A stretch of DNA of 64,000 nt. It comes from Bacteroidia bacterium. Lineage in GTDB: Bacteria; Bacteroidota; Ignavibacteria; SZUA-365. Of the stretch, positions 1,616-43,389 are shown piece by piece. The stretch covers positions 1,069,131-1,133,130 of the forward strand of contig JAOSJT010000001.1 in the NCBI GenBank assembly GCA_027493955.1. Direction: 5' to 3'. Numbering within the stretch: position 1 is the stretch's first letter; every line of letters starts with the position of its first letter. The notes beneath the pieces are model-generated. The model did not search any database, had not been told where the DNA came from, and saw only the letters and a list, made by a program, of their open reading frames with translations. The translations under genes were made by a program, and so were the position numbers.

Positions 1616-3279
1616 CAGGTCTGAATCACTCCCGGATTGAAAGGGCGCAGTTCCGGATTGCAGTCCGCGGCGTCTATGCACGTCGAGATCACAGCGCGCG
1701 TATCCACGGGATCGATGATGCCGTCCACCCACAGCCGGGCTGCGGCATAGTAGGGGCTGGTCTGCGCGTCGTAACTTTGCTGAATGGTTTTCAGGAGTTC
1801 CTGCTGCTCTTCCTCGGTGATGCTCCGGCCGCTGTGCTTCATTTGGGAGAGACGGATTTCCAGCAGGGTCTTGCTCGCCTGCGCTCCGCCCATAACCGCG
1901 ATTTGTGCCGTGGGCCAGGCGAAGATGAAACGCGGATCGTAGGCCTTGCCGCACATGGCGTAGTTGCCCGCTCCGTAGCTGTTGCCCACGACGATGGTGA
2001 TTTTCGGCACCACGCTGTTTGCGACCGCATTGACCATCTTTGCGCCGTCCTTGATGATGCCGCCGTGCTCGGCGCGGCTGCCTACCATGAATCCGGTGAC
2101 GTCCTGAATAAACACCAGCGGAATGCGCTTCTGATTGCAGTTCATGATAAATCGTGTGGCCTTGTCCGCGCTGTCGCTGTAAATCACACCGCCGATCTGC
2201 ATTTCGCCTTTGCCGTTTTTCACGATGGTGCGCTGATTGGCGACGATGCCCACCGCCCAGCCGTCTATGCGCGCGTACGCGCACACCAGCGTCTGTCCGT
2301 AGTCCGCCTTGTATTCGATGAATTCCTGATCGTCCACGATGCAGGCGATCACATCCTTCATGTCGTAGGGACGAGCCCTGTCTTTCGGTACTATGCCATA
2401 CAGATCCGAAGCAGGGCGTGCGGGATCCACCGCCGCAATGCGATTGTACCCGGCGCGCGGCCGGGCGCCGAGTTTGGAGACCAGATCGCGGTATCCCCGG
2501 AGGCAACTCGGGTCGTCGGGCATGCGATAATCGGTGACGCCGCTGACCGAGCTGTGAACGTTGGCCCCGCCGAGACTCTCATTGTCTATCTCTTCGCCGA
2601 TGGCGGATTTAACGAGGTGTGATCCGGCGAGAAACACCGAGCCCGTTCCCTCCACAATCATGGCCTCGTCGCTCATGATGGGCAAATAGGCCCCTCCCGC
2701 GACGCAATGGCCCATGATGGCGGAAATCTGCGGGATGCCCATGGAGGACATGATGGCATTGTTGCGGAAAATTCTTCCGAAATGCTCCTTGTCGGGAAAT
2801 ATTTCGTCCTGCAGGGGCAAAAACACACCGGCCGAATCCACGAGGTAGATGATGGGCAGGCGGTTTTCCATGGCTATTTCCTGCGCGCGCAGATTTTTCT
2901 TGGCGGTGATGGGAAACCAGGCGCCGGCTTTCACGGTGGCGTCGTTGGCTACCAGCACGCACAGACGACCGTGAATGTACCCCAGCCCGAACACCGTCCC
3001 CGCCGAGGGCGCGCCACCGTACTCGTTGTACATTTCCCAGGCGGTGAACAGCCCGATTTCCATGAAGGGCGAGCCCGTATCGAGCAGCGCGTCGATGCGT
3101 TCACGTGCCGTCAGTTTTCTCCGGGAGTGATGTTTTTCTATGGCCTTCTTGCCTCCTCCCAAACGTACATGCTCCTCCCGCGCATGCAGCACGCGCAGCA
3201 GATTCTTCATGGCGTCTTCATTGACCAGGGCGGCTTCGTCGATACGGGCGGATCGTGCATCCTGCATGGATTTTTCCAT
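1615..3279 (-). CDS. acyl-CoA carboxylase carboxyltransferase subunit, methylcrotonyl-CoA carboxylase beta type
   Basis: About 554 residues from the chosen ATG at 3277-3279 (MEKSMQDAR); another Met lies four codons downstream, and the frame is open a further 31 codons upstream with no conserved look. The two crotonase-like halves of biotin-dependent carboxyltransferases are visible. In the N half: KKNLRAQEIAMENRLP, the segment LVDSAGVFLPLQDEIFPD, and GHCVAGGAYLP. In the C half: FIQDVTGFMVGSRAEHGGI, GNSYGAGNYAMCGKAYDPRF, and FAWPTAQIAVMGGAQA. The pattern GSVFLAGSHLVKSAIGEE...LGGANVHSSVSGVTDY is typical of methylcrotonyl-CoA carboxylase beta chains (leucine/isovalerate catabolism), but geranyl- or other acyl-CoA substrates cannot be excluded. 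No biotin-bearing subunit is adjacent; accBC sits at 60-62 kb and biotin ligase at 20 kb. Confidence 0.9.
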   Translation of the reverse strand: MEKSMQDARSARIDEAALVNEDAMKNLLRVLHAREEHVRLGGGKKAIEKHHSRRKLTARERIDALLDTGSPFMEIGLFTAWEMYNEYGGAPSAGTVFGLGYIHGRLCVLVANDATVKAGAWFPITAKKNLRAQEIAMENRLPIIYLVDSAGVFLPLQDEIFPDKEHFGRIFRNNAIMSSMGIPQISAIMGHCVAGGAYLPIMSDEAMIVEGTGSVFLAGSHLVKSAIGEEIDNESLGGANVHSSVSGVTDYRMPDDPSCLRGYRDLVSKLGARPRAGYNRIAAVDPARPASDLYGIVPKDRARPYDMKDVIACIVDDQEFIEYKADYGQTLVCAYARIDGWAVGIVANQRTIVKNGKGEMQIGGVIYSDSADKATRFIMNCNQKRIPLVFIQDVTGFMVGSRAEHGGIIKDGAKMVNAVANSVVPKITIVVGNSYGAGNYAMCGKAYDPRFIFAWPTAQIAVMGGAQASKTLLEIRLSQMKHSGRSITEEEQQELLKTIQQSYDAQTSPYYAAARLWVDGIIDPVDTRAVISTCIDAADCNPELRPFNPGVIQT

Positions 3280-3587
3280 CTGTGGAACGTCGTTGAAAAT
3301 ACTCCACCGCAGGTCGAGAGACAAACGGACGTGCGAAGTACTACGAAATGGCGGTGCGACCTTTGTCCGCATTCGTACACGGGCCGACGCGGATTGGGGA
3401 CGGATTCATGCGAAAAGATTTCCCCGAGTTCTCAATGCGAAAAGCTTCGGGGTGCCGCCATACAAACATACTCCGCGTAACCCCTTTCATTTCCGCCTGG
3501 CCCCCTTCTCCGAATGCGTTGAGGCTGTGTCTCCGGGGGGGATTGTACTTGCTTGAATCTAAACGAGACAAGGATGGTCGTAATTAC

Positions 3588-3616
3588 TTGACATTTGCAA
3601 AATTATATTGTAACAT
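3588..3616 (+). promoter_or_regulatory. candidate sigma-70 promoter
   Basis: A perfect TTGACA at 3588-3593 is separated by 17 nt from TAACAT at 3611-3616, in an AT-rich patch that contrasts with the surrounding GC-rich DNA. It points toward the repeat-bearing gene starting at 3813, which would leave a 5' leader of nearly 190 nt. The rest of 3280-3812 shows no gene that I can support. The consensus match is strong, but start-site use is inferred. Confidence 0.55.
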
Positions 3617-3799
3617 AGCTCCCACGGAAGACATCGGAGTCCCATAACCGGAGAAAAAGGTGCATGGGTGCGCGTTTCCCTGAATCCCGTCAATAGTCGC
3701 TTGTGTTCAGAGTTGTCCGCGTTCCGTACTCTTGCCGCCTTCGGAGGTAGTCGCTGATACTGCGGTACACGCCTGTACCGTGTTACATATCACGTTCAT

Positions 3800-3805
3800 G
3801 GAGGA
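3800..3805 (+). promoter_or_regulatory. Shine-Dalgarno site deciding the start of the CCCA-repeat gene
   Basis: GGAGGA at 3800-3805 lies 7 nt before the ATG at 3813. It makes 3813 the best start among the in-frame ATGs at 3732, 3798 and 3813, and places the CCCA repeat inside the coding region four codons after initiation. Confidence 0.7.
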
Positions 3806-3812
3806 CCTTGTT

Positions 3813-6800
3813 ATGGAGCTGTACCACCCACCCACCCACCCACCCACCCACCCACCCACCCACCCGTCCGGACAACTGAAGGGTATCGGCAACGCCCAGC
3901 GCGAGCATTGCCGTCGGGGCAAGCGAAATGCGCAATATAAGCCGGGAGACGCGCGTGTCAAAGATATATCGCATTCCCCGGTCTTGCTTTTTATTGCGGT
4001 CTGCCTGCTCGCTACCATCATGGTTGGGACGGTGCATGCGCAGCAAACCATGATGCTCATGACACACGAAGTCGAGGTTGTCTGCCAGGGGGTACCCGGA
4101 GATAACGTCAGCATCAGCGCTGAGGCGGACGGAGATGTGTATGGCGCAAATTTCAGGTTGTTGGATTCCGGCGATCCCAACAACTACAAGTACTTTTACA
4201 GCGATCAGAGCAGCGCCTTGAGTAACGGACAGAATGTGGATCAATTACTCTGGGATTTCACCGACGACAATACGGCGGGTGCGGGAAAATTGATGTACGG
4301 GTTCTATGAATTCACTGGACCCAATGACACCAAATGCTACCTTAATTACCTGCACTGTTATGCCGGCGGCCCGGATGTCCAATTGCGGTTCTCCTATTCC
4401 GGAGGAGTGTACTCATGGGCCTGGAACGACGGAGGCAACTGGGTCACCTTCACCAACCTCAACCTCTGGGAAATCACAAATGAGAGCCGGGATGTGAGCT
4501 GTTTCCAGGTTGACGTTACCTTGCAAAATGTGTTCCATCTCAAAGCGGGAGGTACACGCAACGATTATGGTTCAATCTTTGTGGACAACATCTCCACCTC
4601 CTACCCTTCTCCATCCACGGTAGAATTCGATCTGGAGTCCAATCACGACTCCTGGCCCAGTCTCAACATCACCAACGCGGTCGAATCAGGTGTGATTCAC
4701 AAGTTCCATGACTGGAATGGCTACGAAGTCTACCACAATGTCATTCACAACTGGGACGCAACAACGATTACAAAAGTAGACGCCAACCACAAACATACCT
4801 CCGGGGGGCTGGGCAAAGTACGCTTCGACGGCACTCCGTCCACCTCCACAGTGGAAATGCGTGATCCATGGAAAGTTGTATGGCCGCAAAATGATCGGCC
4901 GTACTCGGACTTCGACTTCCATCAGATAAGCTTCCCGTACAATGGCTACAACTTCAAGAATGTTGCGGGAATGGGAGGACTGTTTGACGGCGAGGACCCA
5001 ACAAGCCCAGCTCATTCGTACTTCTCCATACGCACTCCGGAATATCTCGAATGGAACGGTTCCTCCTGGGTACTCGCGCAGGCAAGCAACTTTCCGGCTG
5101 TCGGTGATGCGATGCACTGGAAGTTCCGGGGCACCCCGAACGAACACGACATCATGACCTACGCTCCGGTAAATCAGAGTCATGTTGTCTCCGATTATGT
5201 TACGAAGGACCTTGTTCTTCAGACTGAAGAAACGGATGTGCTCGTCGAGTATAAAACCCATCTTCTGTCCAGCACCCCTGTGCAATTCGGCAGCGCATCG
5301 GGACCTCTCGGCGCCAATTCGCAACGTCAGGTAGACATGATGAGCAACGACGGCTATGTGGCCGTGTATGAAAGCAATGAGTATATCTGGCTCATGCGCA
5401 GCGCTCCCGATCCCGTGCAGTGGGAGTGGGAACTGCCACTTGGCCCGGGAATCCGACCTTCTCTGTGGGCAGTCGGCGACTCCGCTTACGTGAGCTGGAT
5501 ACACGACGGCAGGATTCAGGTCGGGAAATACCACGCCGGGCAGTTCAACATGCTCGAAACCTGTACACTGATCAACTACGAACCGGCGGACCATGCCTAC
5601 CCCGTCGTGGCGTATATCGAAGACTTCGTTTGCCTGGTGTATGAGGCTCAGGGCAGGACAGATTTGTTCTACGTGGTCATTCAAAACGATACCTGGTATG
5701 ACGAAGGCATAGTACCCGACGCCCTATCATCCGGCATATCCTGCCTGACTCCGAGCATGACAACGAGCCCGGGTGGATTTCATCTTGCCTGGCGAGAAGG
5801 TGACGATATAGCCACCCGGACAATGACGGTGCAGACGTGGACAAACCCTCCACAGATCGCTTTCGACGCACCAGAGCTGCTTCCGCGTTACAACGAGTGG
5901 TATGTCGGTGCGCCATCCATCACGAAGTATCATTTCGATGCGCAGCCACCGAATGACATCCTTCGGGTCGTAGCCGCCCCATCGCGGGGATCCTTCGGAG
6001 ACGCCAAGATCAACATTTTCAGTATGGACGTGAGCCTTACCTGGTCGCCCATGCAGTCCTTTTTCGGCAACTACTACACGAATGACATTTGGGCTCCCTC
6101 GCTTTCGTCTATCGATCGCGATCCATGCGCGGCGGCATACGACAACGTACGGTGTGCCTTCAATGTCGCCGACCTGACGACAAATCCGGTCTCGTATTCC
6201 ACCCGCGCAGTGGGTGTGAATTGCGGCACATGGCAAGTGAACGACCCACAGGTGTCACAGGCCACACATCCCACTCTCGTGGCTTTTCCGCCAGAGAATA
6301 TGGGTCTGGAACTCTACATCGATCTGGCGTCGAATGATGTACCCACTCCATTAGCAAGCACGTGCAAGCAGATCGGGAGCACACGCAACGCACTGAACAA
6401 GGCCTCCGCCAGCAACGATCTTCTCGCTTCACGGGTGCTGTGGTTGCGGGAGGATACAGCATGGGTTGGGCTCGGTCTCGGTAACATGCTTATGCAGCGC
6501 CCAACAGGAGATGAACCGATAGACTGGCATCAACTCCCGAAACCGGGCACGGCCATTTCGCCGGCCGGAGTTGGCTCCTACATCCTCTCCGATGAGTTTG
6601 TACCCAACGCACAATCCGTGCTGCGATACAGCATTCTGCGCGAGAGACTTGTGACACTCGGCGGTCCCGACGTAGATGCCGTATACATCGAACTGCTCGA
6701 TGCGGGAACGGGCAATGTGCTCGAAATCATTGAAAACATCGATCCATCGGCGTTACAGGTTGGAAGAAACATCACTACAGTGTACAAATCGTTGCAGTCG

Positions 6801-7223
6801 TATTCCGACAGAAATGTTCGTCTCCGCATGCGTCCGCTGTTCAATGTATCAGCGCCTGAATTTGCCGTGGCGGACTACTACAACATCGAGCGGGATTCTA
6901 CCGTTGTCTTTCCGAAGGCGCAAAGCGAGTCCGAGATGCATGTCGCGACTCCCGAAGCTTCGGATATTCGCCTGGAACAGAACTATCCCAATCCGTTCAA
7001 TCCCGTGACAACGTTGCGCTATTATCTCCCCCGCTCCTCATTCGTTACGTTCAGGGTGTACGACAATCTCGGAATCATCGTGACGACGTTAAAGGAAGGT
7101 GACTGCGAAGCGGGTTCGCATAGCGTTACCTTTGATGCAAGGGGTCTGGCCAGCGGCAACTATATAGCGAAGCTTACGGTTGACGGCTACTCGGTGATGC
7201 GGCGCATGACGCTTCTGCGCTGA
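3813..7223 (+). CDS. large secreted T9SS-sorted protein, probably phase-variable
   Basis: A 1136-residue protein when started at the ATG 3813, chosen for its GGAGGA Shine-Dalgarno site. Residues 5-16 are HPPT units encoded by a tandem CCCA repeat. A basic stretch follows (REHCRRGKR), then a signal peptide with hydrophobic core from about residue 55 and cleavage site VHA|QQ (Gln77). The 54-residue extension before the hydrophobic core is unusually long. The body is rich in W, Y, N and S and shows no catalytic domain I recognise. The last 80 or so residues are a T9SS type A sorting domain (NYPNPFNPVTTLRYYLP ... MRRMTLLR). Four-base changes in the repeat would frameshift it: one unit fewer ends at the TGA at 3877, one more ends about 24 codons past the repeat. 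It is presumably displayed on or released from the outer membrane. A start downstream of the repeat is not visible in this frame. Confidence 0.8.
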   Translation: MELYHPPTHPPTHPPTHPSGQLKGIGNAQREHCRRGKRNAQYKPGDARVKDISHSPVLLFIAVCLLATIMVGTVHAQQTMMLMTHEVEVVCQGVPGDNVSISAEADGDVYGANFRLLDSGDPNNYKYFYSDQSSALSNGQNVDQLLWDFTDDNTAGAGKLMYGFYEFTGPNDTKCYLNYLHCYAGGPDVQLRFSYSGGVYSWAWNDGGNWVTFTNLNLWEITNESRDVSCFQVDVTLQNVFHLKAGGTRNDYGSIFVDNISTSYPSPSTVEFDLESNHDSWPSLNITNAVESGVIHKFHDWNGYEVYHNVIHNWDATTITKVDANHKHTSGGLGKVRFDGTPSTSTVEMRDPWKVVWPQNDRPYSDFDFHQISFPYNGYNFKNVAGMGGLFDGEDPTSPAHSYFSIRTPEYLEWNGSSWVLAQASNFPAVGDAMHWKFRGTPNEHDIMTYAPVNQSHVVSDYVTKDLVLQTEETDVLVEYKTHLLSSTPVQFGSASGPLGANSQRQVDMMSNDGYVAVYESNEYIWLMRSAPDPVQWEWELPLGPGIRPSLWAVGDSAYVSWIHDGRIQVGKYHAGQFNMLETCTLINYEPADHAYPVVAYIEDFVCLVYEAQGRTDLFYVVIQNDTWYDEGIVPDALSSGISCLTPSMTTSPGGFHLAWREGDDIATRTMTVQTWTNPPQIAFDAPELLPRYNEWYVGAPSITKYHFDAQPPNDILRVVAAPSRGSFGDAKINIFSMDVSLTWSPMQSFFGNYYTNDIWAPSLSSIDRDPCAAAYDNVRCAFNVADLTTNPVSYSTRAVGVNCGTWQVNDPQVSQATHPTLVAFPPENMGLELYIDLASNDVPTPLASTCKQIGSTRNALNKASASNDLLASRVLWLREDTAWVGLGLGNMLMQRPTGDEPIDWHQLPKPGTAISPAGVGSYILSDEFVPNAQSVLRYSILRERLVTLGGPDVDAVYIELLDAGTGNVLEIIENIDPSALQVGRNITTVYKSLQSYSDRNVRLRMRPLFNVSAPEFAVADYYNIERDSTVVFPKAQSESEMHVATPEASDIRLEQNYPNPFNPVTTLRYYLPRSSFVTFRVYDNLGIIVTTLKEGDCEAGSHSVTFDARGLASGNYIAKLTVDGYSVMRRMTLLR
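3824..3865 (+). repeat. (CCCA)10.5 tetranucleotide simple-sequence repeat
   Basis: Forty-two perfect bases with an A every fourth position from 3826 to 3862. The repeat encodes His-Pro-Pro-Thr in the frame of the gene starting at 3813. Because the unit is not a multiple of three, gain or loss of one unit moves the downstream signal peptide and body out of frame. This is the architecture of contingency loci with tetranucleotide repeats such as those known in Haemophilus and Neisseria. Confidence 0.95.
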
Positions 7224-7272: not shown

Positions 7273-7306
7273 TCCTGGATTCCGGTTGTAGTACCGGAGT
7301 CCAGGA
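7273..7306 (+). terminator. hairpin after the repeat-bearing gene (terminator or leader element)
   Basis: Arms TCCTGGATTCCGG (7273-7285) and CCGGAGTCCAGGA (7294-7306) pair at 12 of 13 positions around an 8-nt loop. There is no T-tract, so it may be a factor-dependent terminator, an mRNA-stabilising 3' structure, or part of the leader of the next gene. It argues against starting the next gene at the ATG at 7261, which would put this stem inside the coding region. Confidence 0.5.
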
Positions 7307-7392
7307 ATATTACACAGATAATTCGGGCGGATTACACAATGAGACGCAACATACATTCTCCAAGTCGTTACGACGCTGTAGTTTGCAACTAT

Positions 7393-16000: not shown

Positions 16001-16112
16001 GGGCACACACAGCGTCAGCTTCGATGCCGGAGAACTGCCTTCCGGTATGTACCTGTACGAGTTGCGCGCACTGGGCAGCAGACTCACCAGAACCATGCTG
16101 CTCGCACGCTGA
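13086..16112 (+). CDS. secreted gluzincin metalloprotease with T9SS sorting domain
   Basis: A 1008-residue protein from the ATG at 13086 (GAGG 5 nt upstream). The frame is open from 13008, but only this start gives a proper signal peptide (MRILFLGFLLLL..., cleavage ASA|QHD). Residues to about 280 look like an FTP-type propeptide (fungalysin/thermolysin inhibitory region). The catalytic motif HELGH (His452, Glu453, His456) is followed by KEAIADL with Glu478 as the expected third zinc ligand, as in M4/M36-like gluzincins. The region after about residue 620 contains beta-sandwich domains, and the C terminus is the sorting domain NYPNPFNPSTVIRYQLP...RTMLLAR. Probably an exported peptidase that scavenges protein. 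An intrinsic terminator follows directly. Confidence 0.9.
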   Translation: MRILFLGFLLLLNFFQVPFASAQHDHNADEGIAVRLPEESFLLTSSHVQERQSLSKAHSAFSSFIRSNADWSFDYDALRRTPHRASGSGIPIEGFQNISLLNAPQAGRAFIRQHAGELNVNPTNLRLLYSEILDGKAYQKYIQTYNGIDVLFSYVDLRISSTGRVFMFGSDYHPALAVNTTPAVSEAAAREFAKAGLPYVDTHEHITDRGLVILPVRYSDRYEYRLVYNFEVHSGVKERWDTYVDAHDGTIVWRKNLIPHFACSGHEGPNGVTNVVNGRIMINIFQESYVEAPVTVPLKNAYVWVAGKMYTTDSDGRFTVDLGAATTGQLITKFTGPYANVRRADTTRVSGGTPVNAVQSMTVAAGQNLEIVWDNTNSVASERNTFYHINLARDFSRALDAGPANNTLDTQIPGIVEINSECNAFFDGRGVNFFKSSLSCGNTGEISSVIHHELGHGIHIWLTQKLIGRAPVNGALKEAIADLTTNLLRDDPRIGVGFLKNGAGGGIIRNSDNTLRYPENVVNEIHDDGMILTGAVWDVRRAIGLEQTAKLYHMAMYGTPDGASLGVALADYFIEFLVADDDDGNLANGTPHSEAIIAAFNAHGIPGSAISITHTPLGDQNSVTTPYGISGRARVSNEINQEMMSVTQVDVVYSVDDWKNTLRFTTAYDAASKNFTGEFPPQPAGTIVRYYLEAFDNFGTSAKEPMNAPQSNYLFLVGFEQKYFHDGETADGWSVRGDAGTGEWVREDPVGTWNTSLGTPPDVPYVQPNEDNTPGTGKTKCWVTGNAARGAGLGTNDVDDGETTIFTRNYDISGMSNPVLRYFRWYSNNAGAEPNSDFWTVRISSTSGNWGILERTKVSDASWQPKVFILKEHVSFTPDLVVQFTAEDAEPGSLVEAAVDDFEILDVNPALVSVENEHALPTGLALSQNYPNPFNPSTVIRYQLPTASMVELRVFNALGVEVAAPVLGHRSAGTHSVSFDAGELPSGMYLYELRALGSRLTRTMLLAR

Positions 16113-16230: not shown

Positions 16231-17229
16231 ATGAGCAATCGATACCTCCGCAACCTGACCGCCATCCCGCTGTTGCTGCTCGCTTCCTGCGGCGGCGGCA
16301 CTAAACAAGACGAAGCACAGATTCCCACCCCGATGTTCAGCCCTCCCGCTTCTCAACCCTCGTTCAGTGGCGAAACCGCTATGCGGTATATCACGGAACA
16401 GGTTACCTTCGGTCCGCGCGTTCCGGGCTCTCCCGCGCATACGGAGTGCCGGGACTACTATGTGAAGCATTTCACAGATCTTGGCTGGGAGACTTCGCTG
16501 CAGTCCTTTTCGATGCCCGGGTACGAAGGAGTGACCCTTGATCTGCATAACGTCGTCGCGCGCTTCCGTCCGGAGGTGCAGCCCCGCGTCCTGCTCTGCG
16601 CGCACTGGGATTCCCGGCCCTTTTCCGACATGGAAACGGATGAGACTCTGAAACTCCTTGCGGTTCCCGGAGCGAATGACGGAGCCAGCGGCGTTGCCGT
16701 ACTGATGCATCTCGCGGAAATCCTGTCCGCCACTCCACCGCAGATCGGAGTGGATATCGTTCTCTTCGATGGGGAGGATTACGGGAAGGACGGCGAAGAA
16801 AGCATGTTCTGTCTCGGTTCCAAATATTACGCCGCATCGCTGGGGACGGAAAGCGCACCGCTCTTCGCAGTGCTGCTCGATCTCGTGGGAGACAAGGAAG
16901 CGGTGTTTCCCCGGGAGGGTTTTTCCGAGCAGTTCGCCAAGGATATCCTGGATTTGTTCTGGTCGCAAGCGGCGGCACTCGGACTGAAGCAATTCGTCAA
17001 CAGCAGGCATTCCCCTATTATCGATGATCACCTTCCGCTGAATACCACAGGCGGCATTAAAGCCATCAATATCATTGACGCCTCGCTTGTCGGTCATGCC
17101 GATGCAAACGAACGCAGAAAATACTGGCACACGCAAAGGGACACCCCTGAGCAATGTTCAGCGGCGACGCTCGAGGCGGTTGGCTCCCTCCTGTTACGTG
17201 TGCTTTTCGGACTGCAACCATCCACCTGA
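16231..17229 (+). CDS. M28-fold lipoprotein, glutaminyl-peptide cyclotransferase-like
   Basis: A 332-residue lipoprotein (lipobox LLAS|C20). The zinc-enzyme motifs fit the M28/glutaminyl cyclase fold: LLCAHWDSRP (His125), GANDGASG (Asp150), FDGEDYG (Glu182), IIDDHLPLNT (Asp266/His267) and YWHTQRDTPE (His300). Asp150, Glu182 and His300 correspond to the single-zinc ligands of type II glutaminyl cyclases, and the IIDDH segment resembles the IEDDH/IDDDH active-site loop of those enzymes. Such cyclases convert N-terminal Gln of exported proteins to pyroglutamate; in this window most signal-peptidase-I substrates expose Gln at position +1. An aminopeptidase role remains possible. The next gene, prmA, starts 6 nt downstream. 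Confidence 0.8.
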   Translation: MSNRYLRNLTAIPLLLLASCGGGTKQDEAQIPTPMFSPPASQPSFSGETAMRYITEQVTFGPRVPGSPAHTECRDYYVKHFTDLGWETSLQSFSMPGYEGVTLDLHNVVARFRPEVQPRVLLCAHWDSRPFSDMETDETLKLLAVPGANDGASGVAVLMHLAEILSATPPQIGVDIVLFDGEDYGKDGEESMFCLGSKYYAASLGTESAPLFAVLLDLVGDKEAVFPREGFSEQFAKDILDLFWSQAAALGLKQFVNSRHSPIIDDHLPLNTTGGIKAINIIDASLVGHADANERRKYWHTQRDTPEQCSAATLEAVGSLLLRVLFGLQPST

Positions 17230-40044: not shown

Positions 40045-40180
40045 TGCAGTATTACACAGAGAGCAAAGAGCGGAGAGCACGGCCGTGTGGGGGCGCGGCG
40101 CGAAGAGCAGAGAGCTGAGAGCAGAGAGCACGGCCGTGTGGGGGCGCTCGCACCGTACAAGTGCCTCAGTTCGGGAGGAT

Positions 40181-40249
40181 GGCGCCTGCCCGCCGAAGCC
40201 ATTGCACAGCGCTTCGGTATCTCGATACTGTGATTTGGCGCAGGCGGGG
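40181..40249 (+). repeat. hairpin insert A in repeat unit 2
   Basis: About 67 bp beginning GGCGCCTGCCCGCCGAAGCC and ending TTGGCGCAGGCGGG. Nested complementarity: CGCCTGC with GCAGGCG at the ends, CCGAAGC with GCTTCGG inside, and a small TATC-TC-GATA hairpin. The whole could fold as a branched structure in DNA or RNA. Confidence 0.8.
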
Positions 40250-40468
40250 AGAGCGAAGAGCGGAGAGCACGGCCGTGTGGGGGCGCTCGCACGGTACAAG
40301 TGCCTCGGTTCGGGAGGAGGCAGAGAGCGAAGAGCGGAGAGCATGGCCGTGTGGGGGCGCTCGCACCGTACAAGTGCCTCAGTTCGGGAGAACGCAGAGA
40401 GCAAAGAGCGGAGAGCACGGTCGTGTGGGGGCGCTCGCACCGTAGAAGTGGATCAGTTCGGGAGAATA

Positions 40469-40535
40469 GCGCCTGCCCGCCGAAGCCTTTGCACAGTGCT
40501 TCGGCATCTCGATAATGTGATTTGGCGCAGGCGGG
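40469..40535 (+). repeat. hairpin insert B in repeat unit 5
   Basis: A near-identical second copy of insert A (differences such as CCTTTGCACAGTGCTTCGG versus CCATTGCACAGCGCTTCGG), inserted at the equivalent place after TTCGGGAGAATA. CCGAAGC no longer pairs perfectly beyond GCTTCGG but the outer CGCCTGC/GCAGGCG arms are kept. Confidence 0.8.
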
Positions 40536-40746
40536 AAGAGCGGAGAGCACGGCCGTGTGGAATAGCTCAAATCGTACAAGCCCCTCACTTCGGGAGGAGG
40601 CAGAGAGCGAAGAGCGGAGAGCATGGCCGTGCAAGATCGCTCGAATTGCACAAGTGCCTTAGTTTGGGAGGCGGAAGGCGTCGGATGAGCACAAGAGCCA
40701 GACAGCGGTTATAGTTCTTTGTGCGGACATCCGTTACGCACGACCG

Positions 40747-40786
40747 TGCTCTCTGCTCTCTGCTCTCTGCTCTCTGCTCTCTGCTC
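40747..40786 (-). repeat. inverted array unit ending in a TGCTCTC heptamer satellite
   Basis: Five full TGCTCTC units plus one partial. Read on the minus strand this gives GAGCAGAGAGCAGAGAGC leading into GAGAGCACGGTCGTGCG, which is the start of the array unit in opposite orientation to the main array. The segment 40687-40746 between the two is unique sequence. Confidence 0.85.
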
Positions 40787-41109: not shown

Positions 41110-41328
41110 GTGCCTGAAGAGAGTACACTCATCTTTTGATTGCTAAGCCAGCGTGAGAACTGACTCCGTTGTCGATGTAGTACCCCGTCAGTGGCGGCGA
41201 GGAACAAGGTAGGAATCTGATGACGCCATATGGAGGGACAAAACCTCGGTAATTTATTTTCAGGGGATGGGAATTATTTCGCGTTTCAAGTGTCATCAGT
41301 AGTACAAACACTTTTTGCAGGTCGCGAT

Positions 41329-43389
41329 ATGTTCCAACGTTGTGTTATCCGGGCATTCGTCCTCTACGCATTCCTATTCCCTTGCCATACGCATGGACAG
41401 TCCACTTGGGAGGTGTTCTATCCTTCGGGAAGCGGAGCTTCGCAACTCGTCCGGGATTCTGATTCACTGTTCGCGGTGATCGACGACAATCTCTTCATTT
41501 CAGGAGATTGTGGTGAGAACTGGCGGCGGGTGGAGGGATTTCATCCACAGATCTACGCGATGGCGACGGATGACGAGGGACTGTATATCGCAGCCGGAAA
41601 AGCAGGATTATTTATTCGGAAGCACGGCGACGAGAAACTTCGGCGATCGGGAATCGACACTCTCGCCTTCTACGGAATCCTCAATCACGCGGACACGCTG
41701 TTCCTCAATTCGAGAGACGCTCTGTACACGACCATCGATCGCGGAATACATTTTACCAGAGTCTCTGTAATCGAGAAGTTCCGGCGGTTTCTGTTCTCCG
41801 ATGGGATCGCGCTGTACGCGGACATCGGGACGAATTATCTTGCCCGCAGTGAAGACGGCGGTGTTACATGGCTGCAATGTTCGGTCACTCTTGATTATGG
41901 TCAGCAATTTTTAGCCCATCGTGGCAATCTTTACTGCGGAATTTCGGATGTGAGGGCGTTGCAAAGATCCACCGACCGTGGAGCGACCTGGAAGAAGGTA
42001 CCTTCCGTACCTGTGGATCCACGTACGGACCGATTTTTCATGAATCTCAAAGGGATTTCCACTCTGACCGCGGACGAAGAAGCGCTGTACATTAATACAG
42101 GCCGAGGAATATTTCGGAGTACGGATGAAGGCGGAAGCTGGCAGGCGATATCCGATGCCGACACCCGATTCAAATCCATGTTAAAAACTCCGCACTGTCT
42201 TCTTGCCGGCAGCGCGGCCGGAAGTTTCCGTTACATCGAGCAGGCGCGACACTGGCGGCAGCTTCCGTTGTACTGGTTCGACGCGATACCAACGTTACAA
42301 GCGGGAGGGCGCTTCATCTGTGACGGAGGCGGACGCTTCTCTCCCGATGAAGGAAGCAGTTGGTGGGCAGACAGCCACTCTTTTCAGCCAGTCGCTTCCA
42401 GGCCTGACGGGACTCTCTACAGATCTCAGGAAGCCGGCAGTGATTCGGCCTGGCTCATGATGTCGATTGATAATGGTATGCACTGGGAGATTATCGATTC
42501 CTTACCCCGCGGTCGGAGCAGACTTGCCGCAAATGACAGGTATCTGATCGCAGCTCATTTCACAAGCTACCAAACGACGCTGCGTCTCTCCGACGACGGC
42601 GGCGGCATCTGGGTGTCCATTCTCGACCATCCCGTTTCGTTGCCGAATGTTACGATGAATGCCTCGAACCACATTCTTCTCAATTCCGGGAATACCTGGC
42701 TCTTCTCGCCGGACCTTGGTGTAAGCTGGGATTCGGTGCACAGCTACAGCGTCGATACTATACGCAGAGCGACTCTCACCAGCCATTCATTCTTCATCGA
42801 GACGGATAAAGGGATATTCCGCTGGATACGGCCAGGTGAATGGGAGCACGTACTGGTTGATCAATCGATCTCCGATGCGAGGATCGCGGGTGGCTGGCGC
42901 CAATATCTTTGTGTTTTAGGACGTGATTCACTGCACCTGTTGAACGAGGAAAGCCGAGTGTGGGCGGCTGTTCCCCTCCCTGATCCATTCAGAGCATCCG
43001 GAGAGCGTCCGGCATTCGCCACATCGAATTCATACGTCTTCGTCGCGCAGAAATTCGGAATGGCGTACCGGTTGAAACCTGAAGGAATCACCTCGCTCCA
43101 TGTGCGTTCCCTTGCAGGGCTTGACAAACTGCCGATAGTAGTGCACATGTCGCCCCATCCGGCTTGCGGGCAGGTTACGATAGCGTTGGACGGTCAGCAT
43201 GATGCGAGCGTCGAGGTGTCTGTATACGATATGCAGAGCCGCAAGGTCATGGATCTGTATCAGGGTGAGCTTGGCTCCGGATCGCAGACCATCCACGGCG
43301 ATGTTTCCATGCTCCCGGTTGGTGCTTATGTGCTGCACATCGCCAACGAATCGCGGCGAGTATTTCACCCGTTCATCGTTGCGAGGTGA
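41329..43389 (+). CDS. T9SS surface protein with Asp-box repeats (paralogue 1)
   Basis: A 686-residue protein from the ATG at 41329, which gives a signal peptide with cleavage THG|QST; the frame is open from 41230. At least eight Asp-box-like motifs (SxDxGxxW) recur, e.g. SGDCGENW, SEDGGVTW, STDRGATW, STDEGGSW, SIDNGMHW and SPDLGVSW, the turn signature of sialidase/photosystem-stability-factor propellers. No sialidase catalytic Arg triad is evident. The C terminus (EVSVYDMQSRKVMDLYQGELGSG...FHPFIVAR) is a sorting domain without NYPNPFNP. It is followed 5 nt later by a paralogue. Confidence 0.82.
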   Translation: MFQRCVIRAFVLYAFLFPCHTHGQSTWEVFYPSGSGASQLVRDSDSLFAVIDDNLFISGDCGENWRRVEGFHPQIYAMATDDEGLYIAAGKAGLFIRKHGDEKLRRSGIDTLAFYGILNHADTLFLNSRDALYTTIDRGIHFTRVSVIEKFRRFLFSDGIALYADIGTNYLARSEDGGVTWLQCSVTLDYGQQFLAHRGNLYCGISDVRALQRSTDRGATWKKVPSVPVDPRTDRFFMNLKGISTLTADEEALYINTGRGIFRSTDEGGSWQAISDADTRFKSMLKTPHCLLAGSAAGSFRYIEQARHWRQLPLYWFDAIPTLQAGGRFICDGGGRFSPDEGSSWWADSHSFQPVASRPDGTLYRSQEAGSDSAWLMMSIDNGMHWEIIDSLPRGRSRLAANDRYLIAAHFTSYQTTLRLSDDGGGIWVSILDHPVSLPNVTMNASNHILLNSGNTWLFSPDLGVSWDSVHSYSVDTIRRATLTSHSFFIETDKGIFRWIRPGEWEHVLVDQSISDARIAGGWRQYLCVLGRDSLHLLNEESRVWAAVPLPDPFRASGERPAFATSNSYVFVAQKFGMAYRLKPEGITSLHVRSLAGLDKLPIVVHMSPHPACGQVTIALDGQHDASVEVSVYDMQSRKVMDLYQGELGSGSQTIHGDVSMLPVGAYVLHIANESRRVFHPFIVAR

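Follow-up and report, generated by a model that had tools for sequence, protein, structure and literature searches.

Can the length of a short tandem repeat decide whether a bacterium makes one of its exported proteins? The question is raised by a locus in the window, a stretch of 64,000 nucleotides from the chromosome of a member of the Ignavibacteria (genome G000). The locus carries a perfect (CCAC)10.5 repeat of 42 nt (100% match) at positions 3824-3865 of the plus strand, which begins within codon 4 of an open reading frame (ORF) starting at ATG 3813. With the tract at its present length, the ORF has 1136 codons and ends at a TGA at 7221-7223. We rebuilt the frame with altered copy numbers. 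One unit less brings a stop after 20 aa at TGA 3877-3879 and one unit more a stop after 43 aa at TAA 3938-3940. Removing two units leaves 39 aa and adding two leaves 24 aa, while adding three restores the frame at 1140 aa. The locus thus meets the criterion that a contingency locus has its tract inside the coding sequence, with a unit that is not a multiple of 3 and length changes that lead to early stops. A reading made earlier from the sequence alone had described a perfect 42-base CCCA tract just after a Shine-Dalgarno (SD) site and ATG in a 1136-residue frame, running into TGA 3877 with one unit less and into a TAA about 24 codons past the repeat with one unit more. The tract and frame were confirmed at 3824-3865 and both stops by the rebuilt frames.

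A switch of this kind also requires that no in-frame start downstream bypasses the tract, and this holds at the window locus. No in-frame ATG, GTG, or TTG lies between the tract and the signal-peptide core of the window gene; the first such codon 3' of the tract is a TTG within the hydrophobic core itself. The in-frame starts 5' of the tract (ATG 3813, ATG 3798, and TTG 3732) all read through it. With no bypass start and early stops in two of the three length classes, production of the exported protein depends on the length of the tract. The ATG at 3813-3815 follows an SD sequence, GGAGG, at 3800-3804, 8 nt upstream, and a matching SD-ATG is found in the ortholog described below (GGAGGAACTTATG). 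The leader or spacer coding region from the tract to the signal-peptide core (3866-3977) has no usable in-frame start, and across homologs it is similar in length and little conserved in sequence. The leader is unusually long, with 54 residues preceding the core. The left neighbour, an acyl-CoA carboxylase-type gene on the minus strand (1618-3372), is divergent, so the switched locus appears to have its own promoter region. A sigma-70-like match, TTGACA-17-TAACAT, at 3588-3616 (plus strand) is a candidate only; four promoter-like matches were found versus 3.2 ± 1.8 in shuffled sequences, making it weak evidence.

The product carries the marks of type IX secretion system (T9SS) cargo. A signal-peptide hydrophobic core and cleavage region, PVLLFIAVCLLATIMVGTVHA followed by QQ, is encoded at 3978-4040 on the plus strand, with corresponding cores in genomes G002 and G007. 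The core is clear and an Ala-X-Ala-like site follows, both judged by eye only; read in this way, cleavage between VHA and QQ makes Gln77 a plausible first mature residue. The mature protein of 1060 aa (4041-7220) ends in a T9SS type A C-terminal sorting domain (6984-7208). TIGR04183 matched this domain with E 8.5e-7 and 28.9 bits, above its cut-off of 23, and PF18962 matched below its cut-off (E 3.6e-5). The genome also encodes the T9SS translocon protein SprA (about 1050 bits), which was found in none of 14 control genomes, satisfying the criterion for T9SS machinery. Both the sorting domain and SprA bear out the T9SS attribution of the sequence-only reading. Pfam and NCBIfam searches of the protein recovered nothing besides the sorting tail, the best hit in a PDB profile search was no better than E 0.2, and an AlphaFold2 model from the single sequence was unusable (pLDDT 29.5). 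The second half of the protein is common to other T9SS cargo of G000, G003, and G005 at about 27-30% identity. Where this downstream module recurs, in G003, in G005, and at other places in G000, the homologs start without a simple sequence repeat (SSR). A stem-loop without a T run, read from the sequence at 7273-7307 (plus strand) after the stop codon, is a candidate terminator.

To place the tract against its background, we surveyed repeats in 2.19 Mb of the 5.24-Mb, one-contig chromosome. Exact period-4 tracts of 11, 12, 13, and 14 nt occur 84, 17, 7, and 1 times, respectively, and then none is found before 42 nt. As the next-longest period-4 tract in the 2.19 Mb is 14 nt, the 42-nt tract is not chance or an accident of composition, and the locus meets the criterion of a perfect SSR far above the genome background. 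The tract is also the only one in the whole chromosome with at least five CCCA units. An iterated profile identified 134 ORFs with a T9SS tail in the same 2.19 Mb, 131 of them without an SSR. Since most T9SS cargo lack a repeat, the switch is selective. Of the 17 non-heptamer SSRs, three lie within the 300-nt start regions of T9SS cargo, which account for 1.8% of the bases (P = 0.003), although this positional test was chosen after the loci had been seen. A Fisher test of cargo against non-cargo over all SSRs was weaker (odds ratio 4.4, p = 0.057).

Other repeats were recorded as well. The third SSR in a cargo start region, an (AC)13.5 tract at G000:C1:4911594-4911620 on the minus strand, follows an ATG upstream of a 1422-aa T9SS cargo. 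We rejected it as a clean switch: ATG and signal peptide share a frame, but that frame meets an amber codon between the tract and the signal peptide. Directly after another SD-ATG, (CCCAG)8.6 at G000:C1:4724187-4724229 opens a leader ORF, both open frames of which end at the ATG of the next ORF in an ATGA-type overlap; this arrangement suggests a putative phase-variable translational coupling. Heptanucleotide arrays (TGCTCTC, GTGAATC, TAAATCG, CGATTCC, and others) number 29 in the 2.19 Mb, mostly outside the start regions of long ORFs, and one is in the window at 40747-40786. Repeats of 74 nt at 40110-40670 of the window lie upstream of a T9SS cargo gene (41230-43386). At locus L217, (GT)7 occurs at 16087-16100 and 17089-17102, in two similar ORF copies about 1 kb apart.

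Homologs of the window gene were gathered by protein search within the family. The search found one full-length ortholog, G002_C13, from another genus (51% identity), and one partial homolog, G007_C4, comprising the N-terminal part only, from a second species of that genus. Counting CCCA units in related genomes had been proposed as a check on the switch. The CCCA repeat is absent from both homologs, but poly-C tracts stand in the corresponding place: each gene has an SD, an ATG, about ten codons, the tract (C10 in G002_C13, C8 in G007_C4), a spacer, and a signal peptide. The frame opened by the ATG does not match that of the signal peptide in either gene, and it closes after 35 (G002_C13) or 14 (G007_C4) residues. 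The criterion that length or state differ among related genomes is met, at the level of species only and not of strains. Bypass candidates do exist in these two homologs, a TTG in G002_C13 and an ATG in G007_C4, both in frame 3' of the tract, so the predicted OFF state may be leaky there. G002 has six C or G runs of at least 9 in 4.1 Mb, and at that frequency the chance of one in a given 250-nt start region is P about 4e-4. It is hard to see what other than selection for a slippable tract would place a different repeat, with apparently the same function, at the same site. The homolog sequences are taken from draft assemblies of many contigs, in which homopolymer length is error-prone. Class-wide, a search for an SD-ATG followed by poly-C found the pattern in 18 of 149 genomes, a modest excess over a reversed-pattern control that we did not treat as a main line of evidence.

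A second candidate switch, on a cargo unrelated to the window-type cargo, lies in the same chromosome. A G11 tract at G000:C1:1473695-1473705, one of 10 C or G runs of at least 9 in the chromosome, lies 36 nt after an SD-ATG and inside the signal peptide of a 1160-residue open frame. This frame has a T9SS tail at its end and is similar to M6 metalloproteases, with an HEFLH motif. The M6 domain model TIGR03296 scored 23-37 bits against a curated cut-off of 110.8; that criterion is not met, and we call the protein M6-like only. In the assembly the gene is one base out of frame. The M6-like homologs, all gathered through protein searches only, include eight with a readable start, and in seven of the eight the leader or signal peptide contains a perfect frame-gating repeat. 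Two of these are in frame, G11 in G005_C134 and (CAAG)8 in G010_C295. The others are out of frame: G11 in G000, G12 in G010_C312, (AAGC)6 in G005_C164, C10 in G007_C191, and a 13-nt unit repeated four times in G007_C121. In the eighth homolog, G002_C84, which is in frame, an interrupted G run, GGGAGGGGGG, occupies the corresponding place. At the homologous M6-like site, too, the tract differs between species (G11, G12, G11, and interrupted). Beyond G000, SSRs are present in the same region of M6-like homologs in four other genomes from two other genera. A pattern search added one further homolog, G008_C325 (minus strand), with G11 out of frame. At this locus the G11 signal peptide is joined almost directly to the T9SS tail in a 96-codon frame, representing either an internal deletion of an M6-like cargo or a misassembly.

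Over both families there are 12 gated loci, the window included, and both ON and OFF states are observed among the genomes. Four loci are in frame (the window, G005_C134, G010_C295, and G002_C84, whose interrupted run we counted as in frame) and eight are out of frame, a 1:2 ratio equal to the random-phase expectation. The recurrence of poly-C tracts at the same site in homologs and the second gated cargo in the chromosome support the phase-variation reading first proposed from the window alone. Homopolymers were also seen inside signal peptides outside the family. One is a G9 in a 178-aa exported ORF (G013:C450, same order but another family) and one a C10 in a 301-aa exported ORF (G131:C44, a genome of the same class); they are possible switches.

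The 5' regions of gated genes have more in common than their tracts. A palindrome, CGGTAC-ACGCCT-GTACCG, lies at 3763-3780 on the plus strand of the window, 32 nt before the ATG. Matching palindromes are found 38-39 nt before the ATG at G002_C13 and G007_C4, and an imperfect one at the M6-like locus G007_C191. The exact stem has three copies in the chromosome versus five for a control, which is chance frequency, and we rejected CGGTAC-N-GTACCG as a regulon signal. With its stem at chance frequency genome-wide, the palindrome is a feature shared at the level of the three window-type loci, and it suggests that their 5' regions have a common origin, not that they form a regulon. The window-type gene of G007 has a leader (ATGAAAGCGTTACTTGAA..C8..GGACTTACG) homologous to that of an M6-like gene in the same genome (ATGAAAGTGTTACTTGAA..C10..GGGACTTACG). 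The homologous stretch also takes in about 60 nt of upstream sequence, whereas the two mature proteins are unrelated. The simplest reading would be that copying placed one 5' cassette ahead of a second cargo, with direction and mechanism not resolved. Searched for as a wider element, the leader motif ATAAGGANTTACGG gave just the two known loci among 16 genomes. We give even odds to a broader reading: that a bacterial family with T9SS maintains a stochastically switched set of its cargo, that a movable 5' cassette (palindrome, SD-ATG, slippable tract, and spacer) has come to precede mature proteins unrelated to one another, and that tract types give way to others over evolution without loss of the switch.

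We consider it highly probable that the CCCA tract is a translational phase-variation (contingency) switch working by slippage; length variation within populations and its effect on expression are inferred. CCCA units within codons 4-18 would be gained or lost through slipped-strand mispairing. The ribosome binding site and ATG would be in frame with the signal peptide, and with the 1060-residue T9SS cargo behind it, only when the unit count matches the present one modulo 3. In either of the remaining length classes translation would end within 43 codons, and from this we infer that no cargo would be exported in the OFF phase. The leader would presumably be removed along with the signal peptide, in which case tract length need not alter the mature protein. 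The advantage, also inferred, would be a variable cell surface. The window locus would then be one member of a family-wide set, with related species gating the same gene and the M6-like family through poly-C, poly-G, AAGC/CAAG, and 13-mer repeats. Judged from genomes alone, such switching across genes and related species looks like a bet-hedging strategy of a bacterial family.

The tract could instead encode a neutral or protein-level low-complexity N-terminus (a PTHP repeat) that is in frame by chance and leaves translation ungated. There are no expression data to set against this, and a period-4 repeat gives the same THPP peptide in any frame. The DNA repeat, however, is perfect over 42 nt without synonymous drift, in a genome sample with no other period-4 tract above 14 nt. 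The homologs have different repeats in the same place that encode other peptides (Pro, Gly, KQAS), many of them out of frame. Because the encoded peptides differ over the 12 loci while position and frame-gating are kept, we hold a neutral low-complexity peptide to be very unlikely.

A slippage switch would also be mistaken if translation truly began downstream or at a non-canonical codon (CTG or ATA), with the ATG and tract untranslated or regulatory. The 54 residues ahead of the core make an unusually long leader, and G002 and G007_C4 do offer an in-frame TTG or ATG between tract and signal peptide. No ATG, GTG, or TTG is found between tract and core in the window, the G000 M6-like gene, G010_C312, G008_C325, or G005_C134, however, and in three of the four perfect poly-G M6-like loci the tract codes for part of the signal peptide itself. 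With an SD-ATG ahead of the tract recurring in homologs as well, we find such a start slightly harder still to credit than the neutral peptide. Least likely of all is that sequencing or assembly artefacts, or decaying genes whose frameshifts mimic the OFF state, account for the pattern. Errors are common in homopolymers of 8-12, both G008_C325 and G007_C292 have the appearance of remnants, and the amber codon just after the (AC)13.5 tract would fit decay. The window tract, though, is a tetranucleotide repeat, in frame, in a one-contig genome. Most post-tract frames are long and unbroken (about 1140-1230 aa), unlike those of decayed genes, and independent assemblies show a repeat at the same position.

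If the slippage switch is real, secreted and surface proteins of T9SS bacteria can be bet-hedged singly, at translation, in several genera of the same family. It would become testable why part of a population needs an OFF state for such proteins, which may be phage receptors, adhesins, or costly proteases. The replacement of one repeat type by another at a fixed site would offer a natural experiment on selection for evolvability, and the repeat-at-start layout is a simple sequence signature for finding further switches. In the phylum with T9SS, phase variation is known chiefly through inversions driven by recombinases, and most known slippage switches belong to host-adapted bacteria of other phyla. 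In a literature search that did not extend to subscription literature, we found nothing joining type IX secretion, phase variation, and tandem repeats, or joining Ignavibacteria and phase variation. Judged by titles and abstracts, T9SS and phase variation co-occurred only in general reviews within that search.

Several known systems resemble the window locus. In the contingency loci of Haemophilus influenzae, a tetranucleotide tract lies just after the ATG of a surface-related gene and two of three lengths are OFF, as at the window tract. Those loci gate mainly lipopolysaccharide enzymes, iron receptors, adhesins, and methyltransferases; we know of none among the tetranucleotide loci that is a T9SS cargo. 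The repeat of the Neisseria opa genes sits in the signal-peptide region. Like opa, the loci described here have an SSR near the start of a surface-protein ORF and occur as several paralogs in a genome, with repeat number setting the frame of each one on its own. The opa genes have one repeat type, CTTCT (PMC5320596), and encode an integral outer-membrane beta-barrel, whereas here the product is T9SS cargo and repeat type varies by locus and genus. The AAGC/CAAG and G9-G13 repeats, with translational frame gating, are of the same types as those of the AAGC-type autA and virG and poly-G pilC and pgtA contingency loci of Neisseria (PMC5320596). Interrupted G-run alleles are found in both, GGGAGCGGG in pgtA (PMC5320596) and the run in G002_C84, though the secretion routes and the phylum differ. 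Bacteroides, from the phylum with T9SS, likewise turns surface components ON and OFF at random. There phase variation is described as inversion-mediated (2025 review, PMC11868660), by a recombinase, while repeat slippage is proposed here and no inversion is needed to explain the window locus. The type of switch is already known. What appears to be new is its placement on T9SS cargo, together with the turnover in repeat type and the sharing of a leader.
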